From: an uncultured Cellulomonas sp. | GTDB lineage: Bacteria > Actinomycetota > Actinomycetes > Actinomycetales > Cellulomonadaceae | Direction: 5' to 3' | NCBI RefSeq assembly: GCF_947494015.1 | Contig: NZ_CANLTL010000002.1 | Span: 124,001-188,000 of the forward strand | Length of the DNA stretch: 64,000 nt | Shown here: positions 7,880 through 24,799 of the stretch, piece after piece | How positions within the stretch are numbered: the stretch's first letter is position 1 | Layout: each line of letters begins with the position of its first letter | Notes under the pieces: model-generated | The model's database searches: none | Told to the model about the DNA's origin: nothing | What the model saw: the letters and a program-made list of their open reading frames with translations, nothing else | Position numbers and translations under genes: made by a program

Positions 7880-7967
7880 GGCCGCCAGTGTTGCTTCCGC
7901 GGTGCGGGCTGTCAAGAACCGCACGGCGTGCACCGAGCCGGCCCGGCTCAGGTCCTGCCCGGGCTCC

Positions 7968-8045
7968 GCGCAGACCCTGCGCGGACCCCGCGCGGAACCC
8001 TGCGGGACCCCTGCGCGGACCCCGCGCGGACCCCGCGCGAACCCG
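7968..8045. repeat. Tandem 11-bp GC-rich repeat, about seven copies
   Basis: Roughly seven head-to-tail copies of GCGCGGACCCC, each with zero to two changes; the third copy carries one extra base. It lies in the leader region about 185 bases before the start of the LacI gene at 8229. It is not coding in any convincing frame. Possible roles are slippage-prone spacing of a promoter or simple low-complexity drift. Confidence 0.75.
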
Positions 8046-8228
8046 GCGAGGGCCCTCCGCCGCCGCCGGTCATCGTTGTAGAGTGCGCCCTGCGCCGGCC
8101 TCGCCAGATCGGGGCGCATCCTCCGGCTCGTGGAGCCGCGGGGGCCGCCGGTGCGACGCCGGGACAAGCATGCGCCGGGGCGCCCCGCGGGGCGTCGACG
8201 GCGCGACGAAGAGCGCGGAGCAGCCGTC

Positions 8229-12626: not shown

Positions 12627-14300
12627 CTACTGCACGACGACCGCCGCGGTGAGGAAGGTGTCGAAGCGGTGCAGGAAGGCCGCCATCGCCTGCCGCGTCA
12701 CCGGACGCGTCACGCCGAAGGAGCCGTCGTCGTACCCGTCGGCGATGCCGCTGGCCCGCGCCCAGGCGATCGCCTCGGCGAAGGGGTCGTCGGCGTGCAC
12801 GTCGGTGAAACCTGGGCCGGTCGCGACCGCGGGCGACCCGGCCAGACGGTGCAGGAAGGCGGCGGTCGCCTGACGCGAGACCGGGGCCGCTCCACGGAAC
12901 GTGCCGTCGGAGTAGCCGTCGGCGTAGTCCATGGCCGCCAGCCACTCGATCTGCGGGTAGAACCGGTGGTCCGGGCCCACGTCGGTGAAGGTCTGCGTCC
13001 CCGCGGCCGGCTGCCAGTCGTCACCGGCATACCGGTACAGGAAGGCCGCCATCGCCTGCCGGCTCATCGGCGCGGCCGGCTGGAACACGGTCTGCCCGTC
13101 CACCTGGTAGCCGGTGGACAGCCCGCGCTCGGCGAGCCAGGCGATGTCGACCGCGAACGGGGAGTCCGCCGGCACGTCGGCGAAGGCCGGCACCTCGGCG
13201 CTGCACATCGCGCTGATCGGGTTGTCACCCTGGGCGGTCAGCAGCGCCAGCCGGTAGGGCAGGTCGCCGTACGCGGCCTCGATCTCGGGGTCGCGGCCCT
13301 GGTAGAGGAACTGCAAGGGGGTGCAGGGGTCGATCGTCGGGGTCTGGTCGACGTTGCTGCGCAGCAGCTCCCCGTGCGACACGTCGCGCGTCCACGCGTC
13401 GGACTCGAACGTCACGTTGGGCCAGGCGAGGAAGGGGTTCTCCAGCGTGGCTGCCAGCGGGACCCACTCGTCCCCCACGGCATCGAGCGAGTCCGCCACC
13501 CAGGACCGGAACCAGCGCACGCCCTCGTCGTCGATCGCCTCGACGCTCAGCAGGTACCGACCCGTGTCGCCGATCCGGTAGACGGCACCGCCCTCGAAGA
13601 GGTCGAAGCGCTCGGCCTCCTCCTTGGCGATGACCGTCTTGGTGTAGCCGTTCGGGAAGTCCTCGAGCGTGGTCTCGGCCCGGTACAGGTGGCCGTTGTC
13701 GTCGGAGGAGTAGAGGTAGCACATCTCCTCGTCGCAGATGTTCCAGAAGTCCAGCCAGAACCCGTTACCGATGTTGTCCCGGATGATCTGGGGCATGTCG
13801 GCGAAGAAGTTGGTCGGCTCGCTCCACGACAGCGGGTCGCTGATGTCGTCGGTCGTGGAGTAGCTGGCGTTGCCCGTCTGGTAGACGAGGTACCACAGGC
13901 CGTCGGGCTCGTGGAAGAAGATCTGGGGTGCGGCCCGGTACCCCTCCCCGATGCCGGACTGGTCGAGGTAGGTGATCGGGGCGTCGTCCGCGTCGGCCCA
14001 GTCGGCGAAGTGCGTGTACGCCAGCGCCCACCCCTCGCCCTCGCCGGGGGTCGTCGTCATGAAGACGTGGTACTCGCCGTCGTGGAACACGATCGTCGGG
14101 TCCTTGACGGCGACCGACCCGTGGGTCGCGTCGGGCTGCGGGGTGATCAGGGGGCCGGTCGAGCTCCACTCGAACGTGTCGGGGGAGTCGGTGGCCGCAG
14201 CGGCCGGGACGGCGAGCACGGACGCGGCGGCGGCCAGCGCGAAGGCGGCGGCCACGCCCGTCCGGGCGGCTCGACGGGCGGCGGGCAGGGTGGATCTCAT
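12627..14300 (-). CDS. Secreted GH62 alpha-L-arabinofuranosidase with three SLH repeats
   Basis: A 557-residue exported enzyme. A signal peptide covers residues 1-36 (cleavage near AVPAAA-ATD). The GH62 five-bladed propeller spans about 45-360, with GSVAVKDPTIVFHDGEYHVF (catalytic base Asp67) and APQIFFHEPDGLWYLVYQ. Three S-layer-homology-type repeats occupy about 370-420, 432-485 and 497-550, each ending in a SRQAMAAFLYR-like segment. It would remove arabinofuranosyl side chains from arabinoxylan at the cell surface, anchored through the SLH repeats. AGGAG precedes ATG 14300. It follows the GH43-SLH gene in the same direction, with a hairpin between them. Confidence 0.88.
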   Translation of the reverse strand: MRSTLPAARRAARTGVAAAFALAAAASVLAVPAAAATDSPDTFEWSSTGPLITPQPDATHGSVAVKDPTIVFHDGEYHVFMTTTPGEGEGWALAYTHFADWADADDAPITYLDQSGIGEGYRAAPQIFFHEPDGLWYLVYQTGNASYSTTDDISDPLSWSEPTNFFADMPQIIRDNIGNGFWLDFWNICDEEMCYLYSSDDNGHLYRAETTLEDFPNGYTKTVIAKEEAERFDLFEGGAVYRIGDTGRYLLSVEAIDDEGVRWFRSWVADSLDAVGDEWVPLAATLENPFLAWPNVTFESDAWTRDVSHGELLRSNVDQTPTIDPCTPLQFLYQGRDPEIEAAYGDLPYRLALLTAQGDNPISAMCSAEVPAFADVPADSPFAVDIAWLAERGLSTGYQVDGQTVFQPAAPMSRQAMAAFLYRYAGDDWQPAAGTQTFTDVGPDHRFYPQIEWLAAMDYADGYSDGTFRGAAPVSRQATAAFLHRLAGSPAVATGPGFTDVHADDPFAEAIAWARASGIADGYDDGSFGVTRPVTRQAMAAFLHRFDTFLTAAVVVQ

Positions 14301-17528: not shown

Positions 17529-18071
17529 TCAGGTCAGGTGCCGTCCGACCGCGCGGAGGATCGCCGCCCACGGCAGCTCACGGGTGCCGGGCGCGCGCGG
17601 CTCGGCCAGCGGCCAGACGTCGTCACCGACCAGGAGCTCCACGCCCGCCGACGCCAGGGTCGCCAGGTGCCCGGGCCAGGCCGGGTGGCGGGCGTGCGCG
17701 GCGTTGATGCACGGGAACAGGACCAGGGGGGCGGCCGTGCCGATCGCCTCGGTCAGCACGGTGAGGGCCTGGTTGTCCCCGAGGCCCAGGGCCAGCTTCG
17801 CGGTCGAGCCGGCGGTCATCGGTGCGGCGACGTAGACGTCGATCGGCGGGTGCGGGCTCGGTGCGCTCGGCAGCCGCGGCCGGTCGCGCACCGGCAGACC
17901 GGTCGCCTCCTGCAGCAGCCGGCGCTCGCCGACGTCGGTCAGCCACGCGCCCGCCGTCGGCGTCAGGGTGACGGCGACGGTGTGCCCGTCCCGCAGCAGC
18001 GGCTCGACCAGGCCGGTGCGCACGGACTGCACCCCGCCGGCGCCGGCCGCGACGACGGCGACGGTGCTCAT
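17529..18071 (-). CDS. Flavoprotein of the PPC-decarboxylase-like family
   Basis: A 180-residue protein with the Rossmann-like fold of flavoprotein decarboxylases. It begins MSTVAVVAAGAGGVQSVRTG and has an FMN-site-like segment VYVAAPMTAGSTAKLALGLG, where CoaC/Dfp/EpiD-type enzymes carry a P-A-(S/T)-A-N motif. It ends with NAAHARHP (family His/Asn region) and a hydrophobic tail. It is the last gene of the formate dehydrogenase operon, 66 bases after the NrfD stop. The gap holds an unusual 11-bp repeat that supplies a chain of ATG codons ending in this gene's own start. A role in formate dehydrogenase maturation or redox is only a guess. Confidence 0.72.
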   Translation of the reverse strand: MSTVAVVAAGAGGVQSVRTGLVEPLLRDGHTVAVTLTPTAGAWLTDVGERRLLQEATGLPVRDRPRLPSAPSPHPPIDVYVAAPMTAGSTAKLALGLGDNQALTVLTEAIGTAAPLVLFPCINAAHARHPAWPGHLATLASAGVELLVGDDVWPLAEPRAPGTRELPWAAILRAVGRHLT

Positions 18072-18122
18072 CGGCTGCTCATCGGCTGCTCATCGGCTGC
18101 TCATCGGCTGCTCATCGGCTGG
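18068..18122 (-). repeat. Five perfect 11-bp repeats giving a chain of overlapping ATGA start/stop motifs
   Basis: Five exact copies of CTCATCGGCTG (plus strand), then a degenerate sixth. On the message strand, ATG codons fall at 18126, 18115, 18104, 18093, 18082 and 18071. Each of the first five reads only four codons and stops at a TGA that overlaps the next ATG (ATGA); the last is the flavoprotein start. The NrfD stop is 12 bases before the first ATG. The layout would let ribosomes re-initiate stepwise from NrfD to the flavoprotein. Confidence 0.85.
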
Positions 18123-18137
18123 TCATCCGGTCACCGG

Positions 18138-19286
18138 TCAGGTCGCCGGGTGCGACGTGCGTGGCGCGGCCGGCCCGGACCGGACGGGCATCCCGGCCGC
18201 CAGCCGCTCCCGCTGCGGGACGACGGTGTACCGCGGATCCTTGGCGGACTCCTGCCCGGCCTCGAAGATGCCGAAGCGGGTGCACACCGACCCGGCGAGC
18301 AGGGCCGTCCCCGACACGACGGCGACCGCGCGGCTGCGCCCCGCGAGCAGGGAGCCCGCTGCTCCGGCGACGGTCAGCGCCTTGGCCGCCCGCATCCACC
18401 GACCTGCCGTGCCCCGGTGCAGCGGCTCGGCGGTGATCCCCATCGAGCGCTCCATCCGGTGCTCCATGACGAGCTCGAGGGCCGCCCCGCCCACCGCGAA
18501 CCGGCGGGCCGGGCCGGTCTCGCCGACCGGCGAGGTGACCAGGCCCAGCCCCGCCGAGGCCGCCGCTGCGGAGCCGACGAACACGAAGGGCAGCTCCCGG
18601 TAGGCGGCGTGCCACGACGGGGTCGCCGTGTCGGCGAGCAGCACGGCGGTGTACGCCGCCACGGGCGGGGCGAACAGGGCCGCGAGCAGGCCTGCCGGGC
18701 GGTCCACGACGGCGGCCAGCCGCAGCGGCCCGACGCGCCAGCGCGCCGGCAGCATGGCGACGACCTCGGTGGCGGCGACCGCCCCGGCGAACGGTCCGTA
18801 CAGCGTCAGGATCCAGGTGCCGACCGACATCGGCGACGTCACCTTCGCCACCCGCAGCATGTTCAGGAACCGGCTGGGCTTCCCGAGGTCGTGCACCAGG
18901 GCGACCATGGACACTGACAGCGCGGCGACGGCCCCCAGCCGTCCGGACCGGCGCAGCGTCGGGCGACCGGTCAGGTCGGCACCGGCGGCGATCAGCGAGG
19001 ACCCCGCCGCGACGCCGCCGGCGAACAGGTACGTCGGGATGTCGGCCTCCCACGGCGACGGCTTGACGATCGGCCGCCCGTAGTAGGAGGTGAACGTCGC
19101 CTCGGGGACCATCGGTCGATCCCCGCCCCCGCCGCGGCCGCCACGACGCCGCCTCGATCGGCCGCCCGCCGAGCCCGGCGTGGCGGCCCGGTCCGGCCGC
19201 GCGTCCTGGACGCCGTCGCGGCCCACCGATCCGCCGTCGTGGGTCGCGGCGTCGTCGGTCGCGCCGTCGTCGGTCGCGGCGCTCAC
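18138..19286 (-). CDS. nrfD: NrfD/PsrC-family membrane subunit of formate dehydrogenase
   Basis: A 382-residue polytopic protein. A low-complexity Asp/Arg/Gly-rich N-terminal tail (about 55 residues) is followed by the NrfD/PsrC domain, beginning TSYYGRPIVKPSPWEADIPT and LFAGGVAAGSSLIAAGADLT, and about eight hydrophobic segments. It would anchor the enzyme and pass electrons from the Fe-S subunit to menaquinone. GTG 19286 overlaps the Fe-S subunit stop by GTGA, which decides the start; an internal methionine just before the conserved domain is an alternative. It is third in the selD-fdhA-fdhB-nrfD set. The long charged tail is unusual and poorly conserved-looking. Confidence 0.85.
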   Translation of the reverse strand: MSAATDDGATDDAATHDGGSVGRDGVQDARPDRAATPGSAGGRSRRRRGGRGGGGDRPMVPEATFTSYYGRPIVKPSPWEADIPTYLFAGGVAAGSSLIAAGADLTGRPTLRRSGRLGAVAALSVSMVALVHDLGKPSRFLNMLRVAKVTSPMSVGTWILTLYGPFAGAVAATEVVAMLPARWRVGPLRLAAVVDRPAGLLAALFAPPVAAYTAVLLADTATPSWHAAYRELPFVFVGSAAAASAGLGLVTSPVGETGPARRFAVGGAALELVMEHRMERSMGITAEPLHRGTAGRWMRAAKALTVAGAAGSLLAGRSRAVAVVSGTALLAGSVCTRFGIFEAGQESAKDPRYTVVPQRERLAAGMPVRSGPAAPRTSHPAT

Positions 19287-20245
19287 CGGCGCCGGCCCAG
19301 GAAGGACAGGGCGGCACCGGCCAGCAGCGTCAGGGCCGCGACCCCGGCCCGGTTGAACATGTGCGGCAGGTCCTTGGTCGTCACGACCGGGTCCGGCGGA
19401 AGGCCGTAGACCTCCGGCTCGTCCAGCAGGAGGAAGAACGCCCCGGCCCCGCCGACGCCGTCCTCGGGGTCGTGGCCGTAGAGCCGGGCGTCGGTGGTCC
19501 CCGCCTCGTGCAGCTGCGCGAGCCGGGCGTCGGCCCGCTCGCGCAGCTCGTCGACGTCGCCGAACTGGATGGACTGCGTCGGGCACGCCTGCGCGCACGC
19601 CGGGGTGCTGCCGGCGCCGAGGCGGTCGTAGCACAGCGTGCACTTCTGGGCGATGCCGACGTTCTTGGCGCCCTCGGGCCCCTTGCGGCGCTCGATCACG
19701 CCGTAGGGGCAGGCAGGCACGCAGTAGCCGCAGCCGTTGCAGATGTCGTCCTGCACGACGACGGTGCCGAACTCGGTGCGGAACAGCGAGCCGGTCGGGC
19801 ACACGTCCAGGCAGGCGGCGTGCGTGCAGTGCTTGCACACGTCGGAGGACATCAGCCAGCGGAAGTCGGGCCGACCGGCGTCGTCGTCCTGCCCCGCGTG
19901 CGCGGCCGACGCCCCGTCGGGCGGCGCCATCCCGGGCATCCCCAGGTCCACGGCCTGTCGCCTCAGCCCGGACTCCTGCTCGCCCAGGGGCTTGGCCTGC
20001 TCGATGAACGCGACGTGGCGCCACTGGTTCGCGTTCAGCGAGAGGCTGTTGTCGTAGGACGAGCCGAGCATGTCGAAGTGCGTGGCCGGCACGTCGTTCC
20101 ACTCCTTGCACGCCACCTCGCACGCCTTGCAGCCGATGCAGATGCTGGTGTCGGTGAAGAACCCCATCCGCGGGGGGTGGTCCTCGCCGTAGCCGGCATC
20201 GGCCGCCGGGTCCACCGGGCCGAAAAGGCTGTGCTTGCCTGCCAT
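19283..20245 (-). CDS. fdhB: Formate dehydrogenase iron-sulfur (beta) subunit
   Basis: A 320-residue electron-transfer subunit with four 4Fe-4S binding stretches: CIGCKACEVAC (near residue 36), CKHCTHAACLDVC, CNGCGYCVPAC and CTLCYDRLGAGSTPACAQAC. A C-terminal hydrophobic helix (AALTLLAGAALSFLG) would tether it to the membrane, as in FdnH-type subunits. There is no signal peptide, so the active site appears to face the cytoplasm. Its ATG overlaps the last base of the catalytic subunit's stop (TGATG) and its own stop overlaps the NrfD start, so all three are translationally coupled. Confidence 0.93.
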   Translation of the reverse strand: MAGKHSLFGPVDPAADAGYGEDHPPRMGFFTDTSICIGCKACEVACKEWNDVPATHFDMLGSSYDNSLSLNANQWRHVAFIEQAKPLGEQESGLRRQAVDLGMPGMAPPDGASAAHAGQDDDAGRPDFRWLMSSDVCKHCTHAACLDVCPTGSLFRTEFGTVVVQDDICNGCGYCVPACPYGVIERRKGPEGAKNVGIAQKCTLCYDRLGAGSTPACAQACPTQSIQFGDVDELRERADARLAQLHEAGTTDARLYGHDPEDGVGGAGAFFLLLDEPEVYGLPPDPVVTTKDLPHMFNRAGVAALTLLAGAALSFLGRRR

Positions 20246-23200
20246 CAGGTGCCTCCTGCGGGGTCGGGCGTCTCGTCGCCGTCGTCGGGTGCCTGGGCCC
20301 CGGGACCGACGGTCACGATGGGCCGGGCATGGTCGTCGTGCACGCCGGAGCGGCGCTGGTAGCCCTCGACGAAGGCGAGGAGGTCACGGCCCGTCGGGCG
20401 ACGCCCGGGCAGCACGTCGCAGGTGCCGGCCTTGCTCTCCTGGATCAGGACGTTCGGGTCCAGCGAGATCCCGAACAGGTCGTTGGCGGAGTCGCCGGTG
20501 ACCATGCCGCCCGTCCCCCAGTGGTACGGCAGCCACACCTGGTGGATGACCCGGCCCTCGACGCGCAGCGGGGAGAGGCGGTCGGTCACCAGCACCCGGC
20601 CCTCGACCGCTGCGCGGGCCGTGACCACGTGGCACCAGCCACCGTTCTGCAGCCCGCGCTCGGCGGCGAGCTCCGGGGAGACCTCGACGAACATCTCCGG
20701 CTGCAGCTCGGCCAGTCGCCCGACGTAGCGGCTCATCCCGCCGGCGGTGTGGTGCTCGGTCAGCCGGCTGGTGGTGAAGACGTACGGGAAGACCTCGGCG
20801 TGCGGCTCCGGCGGGCTCGGGTTCAGGCGGTTCGCCGGCCGCGAGTACTCCTTGCGCGTGGGGTTGGCCTGCTGACCGTGGATCGGGTTGCGGAACGGCG
20901 ACTCCACCGGCTCGTAGTGGGTCGGCAGCGGACCGTCGATGAGGCCCTTCGGGACGAACAGGGAGCCCTTCCCGTCGCCCTGCATGATGAACGGGTCCAC
21001 CCCCTCGATGGCCTCGACGCCGTCGCTGCCCGCCGGCGCCCGGTACGACGGCGGCTTGGTGACCTCGAAGTCGGGGACGTCGTGCCCGGTCCACTCCCCC
21101 GCCGCGCCGCGCGAGGCGTCCCACCAGACGTAGGCCTTGCGCTCGCTCCAGGGCCGCCCCTGCGGGTCCGCGGAGGCGCGGTTGTACAGGGTCCGCCGGT
21201 TCGCCGGCCAGGCCCATCCCCACTCGGGCGCCACGTAGCTCTGCTCGGAGCCGGGCGTGCGCCGCGCCGCCTGGTTCACCCCGTCCGCGAAGACGCCGGT
21301 GTAGATCCAGCACCCGCCGAGCGTGGAGCCGTCCGCCTTCATCTCCGTGAACGAGGACAGCGGCCGGCGGGTCGCGACGTCGTACCCGTTGATCTCCATC
21401 AGCACGGCCTCGGCGTCGGGGTCGTCCGTGTCGCCGAGCATCGGGTAGTCCCAGGCGAGGTCGAGAAGCGGCCGGTCACGCTCGGCGGTGGAGCCCGCCA
21501 GGCGCTCCCGGATCAGCCGGCCCAGGTGGTAGAAGAACCACAGCTCCGAGCGGCAGTCGCCCGGGGGCTCGACGGCCTTCTCCCGCCACTGCAGCATGCG
21601 CTGGGTCTGGGTGAAGGTGCCCTCCTTCTCCACGTGCGACGCCGCGGGCATGAGGAACACCTCGGTGCGGCACTCCTGGGGCACGATCTCGCCGGTCTCG
21701 ACCTCGGGCGAGTTCTTCCAGAACGTCGCGCTCTCGATCTCGAACAGGTCCCGCACCACCAGGAAGTCCAGGTTGGCCATCCCCAGCCGCTGCGCCTTGC
21801 CGTGCGCGGAGCCGACGGCCGGGTTCTGCCCGAGCAGGAAGTAGCCCTTGACCTTGCCGTCGATCATGTCGAGGACGGTGCGGTAGGTGCCGTGGTCGCC
21901 GGTGATCCTCGGCAGGTAGTCGAAGCAGAAGTCGTTCTCGGCGGTGGCGGCGTCGCCCCAGTAGGCCTTGAGCAGGTTCACGCCGTAGGCGCGCGCATTC
22001 GCCCAGTACCCCTTGGACCCGGGGTGGCTGATCCCGTCGAGCCAGTCGTCGAGGCTGTCGTCCACACCGGCGGTCGGCATCGGCAGGTAGCCCGGGAGCA
22101 GGTTGAACAGGGTCGGGATGTCCGTGGAGCCCTGGATGCTGGCGTGCCCGCGCAGCGCCATGATCCCGCCGCCGGGACGGCCCATGTTGCCCAGCAGCAG
22201 CTGGAGGATCGCGCCGGTGCGGATGTACTGCACCCCGACGCTGTGCTGGGTCCAGCCCACGCTGTAGACGAGCGCCGTCGTCCGGTCGCGACCGGAGTTC
22301 TCCGTGAAGGCGCGCGCCACCTCGAGGAAGGCCTCGGTCGACACGCCGCAGGTCTGCGACACCAGCTCGGGGGTGTACCGCGCGAAGTGCCGCTTGAGGA
22401 TCTGGTAGACGCACCGCGGGTGCTGCAGGGTCTCGTCGCGCGGCGGGTCGCTCTCCACGCCGATGCCGTGCGTCTCGTGCTGCAGGGCGCTGGCCGTCTC
22501 GCGCTGGACGACGTGGTCCTGGTCGTCGCCGTCCTGCGCCGAGTCCCGGCCGGCGTACTGCCAGCTGGCGGGGTCGTAGGTGCGCGTCGCCGGGTCGAAC
22601 CCCGAGAACAGCCCGTCGAGGTCCTCGGTGTCCTGGTAGTCGTCGCTGACGATCACCGCGGCGTTGGTGTAGGCCACGACGTACTCGCGGAAGTCCAACC
22701 CGTTCTGCAGCACGTAGTTGATGACGCCACCGAGGAACGCGATGTCCGTGCCGACGCGCAGCGGCACGAACGTGTCGGCCAGCGCGCTGGTGCGGGTGAA
22801 CCGGGGGTCGACGTGGATCACCGTCGCACCCCGCGCCTTGGCCTCCATCACCCACTGGAACCCCACCGGGTGGGCCTCGGCCATGTTGGAGCCCTGGATG
22901 ACGATGCAGTCCGCGTTGGCCAGGTCCTGGAGGAACCCGGTGGCGCCGCCGCGCCCGAACGAGGCCCCCAGACCGGGGACCGTGGCGGAGTGTCAAATAC
23001 GCGCCTGGTTCTCGATCTGGATGGCGCCCATCGCGGTGAACAGCTTCTTGATGAGGTAGTTCTCCTCGTTGTCGAGGGTCGCCCCACCGAGGCTCGCGAT
23101 GCCCAGCGTCCGCCGGACCGTCTTGTCGTCGTCGAGCTCCTGCCAGGTGTCGTCGCGCGCCTTGACCACCCGGTCGGCGATCATCTCCATCGCGACGTCG

Positions 23201-23571
23201 AGCTCGAGGTCCTCCCACTCGGTGCCGAAGGGCGCGCGGTAGCGCACCGTGGTCTGCCGCAGCGGGCTGGTGACGAGGTTCTTGCTCGCGGACCCCTTGG
23301 GGCACAGCCGCCCGCGCGAGACCGGGCTGTCGGGGTCACCCTCGATCTGGACGACCTGCTCGTCCTTGACGTACACGAGCTGGCCGCAGCCCACGGCGCA
23401 GTAGGGGCAGACGCTGCGGGCGACGCGGTCGGCGGTCTCGGTGCGGGCGGTCAGGCCGTCGGTGTGCGCGGACCGGGCCGCGGGACCCCGGCCGAGCGGG
23501 TCGGCACCGGTGACCTGGCGCACCACGGGCCACGACAGGAACGTCCTGCTCAGCCCGTCACCGATGCCCAT
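20245..23571 (-). CDS. fdhA: Formate dehydrogenase catalytic subunit, selenocysteine-containing
   Basis: A 1108-residue molybdenum/tungsten bis-MGD formate dehydrogenase read through an in-frame TGA at 22995-22993 (residue 193). An N-terminal 4Fe-4S site uses Cys55, Cys58, Cys62 and Cys90 (SVCPYCAVGCG, LCPKGS). The context ENQARI-Sec-HSATVPGLG is the Sec site of FdnG/FdhF-type enzymes, and a SECIS hairpin follows. After it come VIQGSNMAEAHPVGFQWVME and the C-terminal molybdopterin-dinucleotide domain (FTTSRLTEHHTAGGMSRYVG). There is no Tat signal. AGGAGG precedes ATG 23571 by 7 bases. selD, tRNA-Sec, selA and selB next door supply selenocysteine, so this is neither a frameshift nor two genes. 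Confidence 0.95.
22963..22995 (-). promoter_or_regulatory. UGA selenocysteine codon with bacterial SECIS hairpin
   Basis: On the message strand, the TGA (22995-22993) is followed after 11 bases by the arm GGTCCCC (22981-22975), the loop GGTCT (22974-22970) and the arm GGGGGCC (22969-22963), pairing over 7 bases with one G-U. As I recall it, the E. coli fdhF SECIS that SelB recognises has the same GGUCU apical loop at about this distance. The structure is seen in sequence; SelB recruitment follows from family knowledge. Confidence 0.9.
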
Positions 23572-24704: not shown

Positions 24705-24799
24705 GGAGGCGTTCCTCGTCTGGTGACGGGCGCGGTCTTCAACACCGTAGTGACCGAGCATCTCGGTCAGGCGGGTTCGATTCCCGTCCGCCTCCGCCA
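24705..24799 (+). tRNA. selC: tRNA-Sec (anticodon TCA)
   Basis: A 95-nucleotide tRNA, the same length as E. coli selC. The acceptor stem GGAGGCG pairs with CGCCTCC before the discriminator G and an encoded CCA (24797-24799). The long 6-bp D stem (CTCGTC/GACGGG) is characteristic of tRNA-Sec. The anticodon stem GCGGT/ACCGT carries loop CTTCAAC with TCA at 24739-24741. A long variable arm (GACCGAG/CTCGGTC) and the T loop GGTTCGATTCC follow. The extended acceptor's eighth pair appears mismatched (T-C). It reads the UGA in fdhA after charging by SerRS and conversion by SelA. Confidence 0.96.

Follow-up and report, generated by a model that had tools for sequence, protein, structure and literature searches.

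The window analyzed here, a stretch of 64 kb from an uncultured Cellulomonas sp. (contig NZ_CANLTL010000002.1), carries on its minus strand a predicted selenocysteine formate dehydrogenase operon with four genes: fdhA, an fdhB-like gene, an nrfD-like gene (nrfD below), and a flavoprotein gene. Between the last two lies a tandem array of overlapping start and stop codons, which we call the ladder (Table 1). On the minus strand, the TGA of nrfD (18140-18138) is followed by CCG, a short GTG-started link, five rungs of 15 nucleotides (nt) each, and the flavoprotein ATG at 18071. Every joint between rungs 1 and 5, as well as the joint to the flavoprotein, is an ATGA in which a start codon overlaps the preceding stop, and the reading frame shifts at each rung. 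The first ATG is 11 nt from the nrfD stop, whereas the gap from that stop to the flavoprotein start is 66 nt. An initial annotation of this DNA had described ATGs spaced every 11 bases, each opening Met-Ser/Thr-Ser-Arg in a new frame and closing at a TGA that overlaps the next ATG, with the chain ending at the flavoprotein start; the sequence bears out all of these points. The five exact copies of an 11-bp unit that it also reported are found in the register AGCCGATGAGC, while in its own register one unit differs by one base (ATGACC). The GTG ACC GGA TGA link (18134-18123) was absent from that account.

Table 1. Features of the nrfD-flavoprotein junction and of the surrounding operon (window coordinates).
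Feature	Position	Strand	Remarks
fdhA	20245..23571	-	In-frame TGA at codon 193 (predicted selenocysteine); NF041513, 1933 bits (cut-off 1400)
fdhB-like iron-sulfur subunit	19283..20245	-	Pfam Fer4 domains; best NCBIfam match FDH-beta, below cut-off
nrfD-like membrane subunit	18138..19286	-	Upstream partner; GTG at 19286, alternative ATG at 19112; Pfam NrfD, E = 1.4e-16
GGTGA, weak Shine-Dalgarno-like match	18131..18135	-	4 nt before first ATG
First extra link, GTG ACC GGA TGA	18123..18134	-	3 nt past nrfD stop; TGA overlaps first ATG
Rung 1, ATG ACC AGC CGA TGA (M T S R)	18112..18126	-	ATG at 18126
Rung 2, ATG AGC AGC CGA TGA (M S S R)	18101..18115	-	ATG at 18115
Rung 3, ATG AGC AGC CGA TGA (M S S R)	18090..18104	-	ATG at 18104
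Rung 4, ATG AGC AGC CGA TGA (M S S R)	18079..18093	-	ATG at 18093
Rung 5, ATG AGC AGC CGA TGA (M S S R)	18068..18082	-	ATG at 18082; TGA overlaps flavoprotein ATG
AGCCGATGAGC, 11-bp unit, five perfect tandem copies	18066..18120	-	5' ends at 18120, 18109, 18098, 18087, 18076
Flavoprotein (PF02441), 180 aa	17529..18071	-	Downstream partner; start ATG at 18071; Pfam E = 1.7e-9

The period-11 run is not a product of chance. It is the longest exact run of that period in the window, matching at 46 positions, whereas 200 first-order simulations yielded no more than 14, and the array has the highest Tandem Repeats Finder score in the window (119). When the 4.28-Mb genome was scanned for three ATGA spaced 11 bp apart, all four matches overlapped one another inside the ladder; no second ladder of this kind was found, the scan being for the triple pattern and not for single copies of the unit. 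Because 11 is 2 modulo 3, each added copy is a mini-open reading frame (mini-ORF) whose TGA overlaps the next ATG. Indeed, any ATGA-containing unit with no in-frame stop gives the start-stop chain automatically if its length is 2 modulo 3, and no further coincidence is needed. The frames of nrfD and of the flavoprotein are independent of copy number, so that no on/off frame switching occurs.

How is translation of the flavoprotein likely to start? Upstream of the ATG at 18071, its frame has no ATG, GTG, or TTG back to the nearest stop (18092-18090), and the alignment with the orthologue from Cellulomonas aerilata (78% identity) begins at residue 1. None of six Shine-Dalgarno-like motifs searched for was present within 20 nt upstream of rungs 3 to 5 or of the flavoprotein start. 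In contrast, AGGAGG precedes the starts of both fdhA and fdhB, and a weak match to the 16S tail, GGTGA, precedes the first ATG of the ladder. The other joints of the operon overlap as well, fdhA with fdhB through TGATG (20247-20243) and fdhB with nrfD through GTGA (19286-19283). Both the missing motif at the flavoprotein start and the overlapping joints upstream support a relay of ribosomes across the ladder.

We lean, with modest confidence, toward the following reading, which is built from sequence comparisons: the ladder would be the outcome of replication slippage at a translationally coupled junction, its rungs being hopped by termination-reinitiation. One rung would have been present from the outset in the single-copy ancestor (ATGACC AGCCGATGAGC ACC), with the others arising later through slippage of AGCCGATGAGC. 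A ribosome finishing nrfD would restart at the GTG or at the first ATG and hop from rung to rung, thereby bridging the 66-nt gap to a start that has no Shine-Dalgarno-like motif. An expansion of 2 modulo 3 would be tolerated, as the ribosome stops exactly on the next ATG and each rung hands over to the following one. With expansions of 1 modulo 3, restarted ribosomes would be out of frame on passing the true start, and such expansions would be lost; with an array of 0 modulo 3, the ribosome would run into the gene in frame. Each rung would probably lose some ribosomes, and a higher rung number may thus reduce downstream output.

Published measurements fit parts of this scheme, as far as the consulted sections of the reports go. 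In three Escherichia coli gene pairs, a gap of +14 nt cut reinitiation by 40 to 80%, and one of +38 nt nearly abolished it, while the final 15 nt of the upstream gene sufficed for reinitiation (PMC10666635). Strict coupling was seen in 13 of 14 overlapping pairs tested (PMC6728339).

To place the ladder among similar arrays, we searched actinomycete genomes for four ATGA spaced by k; one set of 296 genomes from the class served for k = 10, 11, 13, and 14, and 148 genomes served for k = 15 and 17. Genomes with a match, followed by those matching a reversed-pattern control, numbered 4 and 2 for k = 10, 6 and 4 for k = 11, 9 and 1 for k = 13, 28 and 5 for k = 14, 28 and 15 for k = 15, and 11 and 1 for k = 17. 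Periods 14 and 17 thus exceed the control, and so does period 13. Arrays were counted as tandem when the mean identity of their units was at least 0.75, which left 6, 5, 11, 26, 30, and 12 arrays for k = 10, 11, 13, 14, 15, and 17, respectively. Loci below this threshold were L107 (k = 10), L094 (k = 11), L116, L121, L126, and L129-L131 (k = 14), and L195 and L197 (k = 17); among them, L121 (hemA-like), L126 (RuvX), L195, and L197 end on Pfam-supported genes. The ATGA ladder architecture recurs, with unrelated units of 11, 14, and 17 bp, at other actinomycete gene junctions. As a separate observation, the genomes of L129, L130, and L131 belong to one family and have in common a similar non-tandem stretch (ladder strand, 1500-1545), apparently noncoding, with four ATGA exactly 14 bp apart.

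The position of these arrays appears to depend on their phase. A script-made count, independent of start calling, looked for arrays whose first rung shares letters with the stop codon of a coding-like frame upstream. There are 15 of them among the 43 tandem arrays with a period of 2 modulo 3 (k = 11, 14, and 17) and 0 among the 17 with a period of 1 modulo 3 (k = 10 and 13; Fisher P = 0.006), and the corresponding numbers within the same 296 genomes are 8 and 0 (P = 0.008); both P values are indicative, since the classifier and its criteria were chosen after the loci had been seen. The absence of 1-modulo-3 arrays from upstream stops suggests that ribosomes do start on such ATGs. This pattern, drawn from a comparison of genomes, is the main support suggested for the relay; accidental slippage would predict no preference of phase. 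The reinitiation relay proposed in the initial annotation has thus gained indirect support, to which the missing Shine-Dalgarno-like motif and a gap beyond the 14 to 38 nt covered in the consulted part of the E. coli study also contribute.

We also judged by eye whether the last rung is the start of a gene. By this judgement it is so in 3 of 5 arrays for k = 11, 13 of 26 for k = 14, and 4 of 12 for k = 17, versus 0 of 6 for k = 10 and 1 of 11 for k = 13. All but one of the 13 starts at k = 14 lead into a frame with a Pfam match (12/13), the exception being L113. The families found downstream include MurG-type glycosyltransferase, fructosamine kinase, DUF7059/methyltransferase, histidine kinase, OMP decarboxylase, ABC ATPase, RsmA-type, DMFA2_C, DUF2017, CrcB, WbqC, beta-CASP, ABC permeases, cation efflux, PNPOx, amine oxidase, and RecG-type proteins. 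These judgements depart from the script's calls in several places. Three starts were added: L113 (k = 14), which has no Pfam match; L164 (k = 14), from a low-GC genome and with a Pfam cation efflux domain; and L199 (k = 17), whose gene begins at a GTG one rung further. Five were removed: L200 (k = 17; 52 codons, no Pfam match), L112 (k = 10), and L147 (no Pfam match), L151, and L156 (k = 13). In L112, L151, and L156, the Pfam domains begin 15 to 42 residues into the frame, and the true start was therefore judged to lie downstream. The start at L143 (k = 13) was retained. L150 and L156 may be one array split over two contigs, and both are included in the 11 and the 17.

Period-15 arrays (0 modulo 3) overlap an upstream stop in 5 of 30 cases, which does not differ significantly from either class (P = 0.14 versus 1 modulo 3; P = 0.11 versus 2 modulo 3). 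In L182 and L185, the repeat of this period reads as an in-frame N-terminal extension. The phase constraint seen is thus mainly one against 1 modulo 3.

Viral contigs were tried as an independent test of the modulo-3 rule and did not support it. Two scans returned at least 119 and 109 stretches, and many of the 80 listed from each are 7-bp-based or noncoding repeats. Single cases oppose each other, L290 (period 14) lying on an upstream stop and L362 (period 13) opening a frame of 598 codons.

The flavoprotein occurs in two of the five genomes of the genus, its own included; the other is that of C. aerilata (G001), where the gene begins at a single start (CCGATGAGCACCGTC) without an array and stands in a different neighborhood. 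The C. aerilata nrfD lies on another contig than the flavoprotein and is followed by a convergent frame. Within the family, nrfD was detected in 4 of 150 genomes, counting our own and one weak match; at L089 it appears, by reading, to be followed by a transporter-like frame. Separately, many Streptomyces homologs of the flavoprotein (L005-L082) have, by reading, an apparent GTG start that shares its letters (GTGA) with the stop of another gene upstream; coupling of this protein to a neighbor thus seems to recur in that genus with other partners.

Besides the indicative nature of the P values, several results weigh against the relay. The raw count at k = 11 is hardly an excess over its control, and period-15 arrays reach junctions too. 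Under the GC-frame rule of the script, taken without our corrections, the two classes are about equal in how often a coding-like frame opens at the last rung (18 of 43 for 2 modulo 3 and 5 of 17 for 1 modulo 3, P = 0.56; 14 and 5 within the same 296 genomes, P = 0.06). On viral contigs, the automatic junction count did not differ between k = 14 (11 of 144 rows) and k = 13 (4 of 68 rows; P = 0.78). The rows of this set, to which we give no weight, count several overlapping registers of one array. The nrfD-flavoprotein neighborhood was found in no other genome among the 5 of the genus and the 150 of the family that were searched. Finally, in some studies summarized in the consulted part of a review, reinitiation was little affected by gaps of up to 25 nt or proceeded across far longer ones (PMC12548453); with so weak a dependence on distance, a ladder would be unnecessary.

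Some of these results favor a rival account, in which slippage was neutral, the array is accidental with rungs rarely or never translated, the flavoprotein is started independently, and the ladder pattern is a by-product of an ATGA start combined with a length of 2 modulo 3. ATGA arrays exist at every period tested, many of them away from gene starts, and the equal performance of the two classes under the GC-frame rule is what this account expects. Perfect unit copies are likewise expected from recent slippage, and the one other genome of the genus with the flavoprotein lacks the array. Neutral, frame-tolerated slippage would also account for much of what tuning would explain. Yet it leaves the contrast in phase at upstream stops unexplained, and it has to contend with a flavoprotein start at which no Shine-Dalgarno-like motif was found. 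We regard this account as possible but somewhat doubtful, and we keep to the relay as the preferred reading.

Rung number was compared at two other junctions. For the Streptomyces permease junction with a six-rung ladder (L135), 150 genomes of the genus were searched and the 30 best loci were read; one had no homologous upstream gene, leaving 29 junctions. The two genes are joined by a direct ATGA in 24 of these, by one extra 14-bp rung in 3, and by six rungs in 1. The remaining junction (L457) has four 12-bp in-frame units, with the ATG missing from units 3 and 4, so that the permease gains an in-frame extension at its N terminus. The permeases of the six-rung genome and of one one-rung genome are 99% identical (L452 and L453). 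Here the unit GAGGAGTCAGCGAT is a local duplication that covers the Shine-Dalgarno motif and the start codon, and the similar letters GAGGA and GATGA within it may have served as a starting point for slippage. At the fructosamine-kinase junction (L095; 196 genomes searched), the 11-bp ladder was present in the query only among the 30 best loci, while at L484 a 9-bp array makes up one mini-ORF ending in an ATGA overlap. The expectation that copy number can change without altering the protein is borne out by the Streptomyces junction, where rung number varies between species and neither reading frame is altered.

These differences invite broader readings. ATGA ladders could form a general, previously undescribed class of tandem repeats in actinomycete operons, continually produced by slippage at Shine-Dalgarno and start regions, with the relay filtering out lengths of 1 modulo 3 and rung number acting as a heritable, mutable dial of the stoichiometry of neighboring proteins; we consider this combination unlikely. 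Less probable still is an adaptive rheostat, the full form of the idea in the initial annotation, in which rung number would be a selected, mutable dial of the nrfD:flavoprotein ratio that slippage resets within populations. The presence of 0, 1, and 6 extra rungs among relatives at one Streptomyces junction, including the two genomes with nearly identical permeases, is in its favor, but extra rungs are missing from 24 of the 29 junctions and the 11-bp ladder from 29 of the 30 best fructosamine-kinase loci, so that ladders look sporadic. That the array works as DNA or RNA structure (a binding site, spacer, or hairpin) and not through its start and stop codons is very improbable: 11 bp is about one helical turn, and a second, imperfect array of that period lies at 7966-8060, but RNA of the ladder region has no more stable folds than shuffled sequences (z = +1.94, +0.93, and -0.48), which rules against RNA structure as an active feature, and ladders elsewhere have different units.

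Turning to the surroundings, a selD-like gene with AIRS domains, named from these domains, lies upstream; a tRNA-Sec is predicted at 24705-24799; and the plus-strand frames that follow resemble selA and selB by reading. The flavoprotein is weakly similar to CoaC/HAL3-type decarboxylases, far under the NCBIfam cut-offs. A further repeat, a 15-bp unit present three times at 19235-19281, lies in the GTG-started N-terminal extension of nrfD, just past the overlapping fdhB-nrfD junction; it is 0 modulo 3 and in frame, and encodes ATDDG-like residues. The second period-11 array of the window is GC rich, with about 7.5 to 8.4 copies and 78 to 82% matches, and sits upstream of an open frame that by reading resembles a LacI-type regulator. 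ARAGORN reports a tRNA-Ser (gct) at 13493-13587, probably a false positive, within an open frame (12627-14300) that reads as a putative glycoside hydrolase with S-layer repeats.

Should the rungs be translated, such arrays would be natural experiments in multi-step reinitiation, each rung being a 15-nt cistron. A comparison of species that have 0, 1, and 6 extra rungs at one junction could then reveal how much is lost at each reinitiation step, a question relevant to the debate on whether terminating ribosomes scan or require overlaps. Translated rungs would also mean that both proteins of a gene pair can stay unchanged while a tandem repeat expands within their operon, provided that its length obeys the phase of the ribosome. 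For annotation, these arrays call for caution, as each offers several equivalent-looking ATGs for one gene start.

The closest known arrangement is ordinary translational coupling through NTGA (-4 nt) or TGATG overlaps (PMC6728339 and PMC10666635). The ATGA joints of the ladder and the TGATG and GTGA joints of the operon resemble it, yet in the cases described in the consulted sections one overlap joins two genes, whereas the ladder strings together five or six serial overlaps through cistrons of 3 to 4 codons. A short upstream ORF (uORF) at ppe2 of Mycobacterium tuberculosis, documented with reporters, relays ribosomes via an AUGA overlap to a gene that has no Shine-Dalgarno motif (PMC11260477). 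The overlap is like that of the ladder, but the ppe2 case involves a single uORF and is linked to a riboswitch, and the consulted part of the report makes no mention of a tandem repeat (PMC11260477).

No description of tandem ATGA ladders was found in the titles or abstracts of the open-licence PMC literature searched. Simple-sequence contingency loci, known from phase variation, also change copy number by slippage near a start codon; they switch a frame or a promoter spacing on or off, whereas any copy number of the ladder preserves the frames of both genes. Mycobacterial interspersed repetitive units (MIRUs) are tens of base pairs long, and the 11-bp ladder unit falls outside that family, a contrast drawn by length and description, not by sequence. 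According to the consulted part of the review, MIRUs insert at start codons, couple at -4 nt, and do little harm to expression (PMC12548453). The repeat's ORF in the ladder is joined to the gene at -4 nt in the same way, but MIRUs are apparently mobile and mycobacterial (PMC12548453), while the ladder unit is 11 bp of local start-region sequence, and the Streptomyces units are likewise local duplications and not mobile insertions. The ladder is thus a MIRU-like start-stop ladder derived from local duplication, a variant of translational coupling that is new in its tandem-repeat form.

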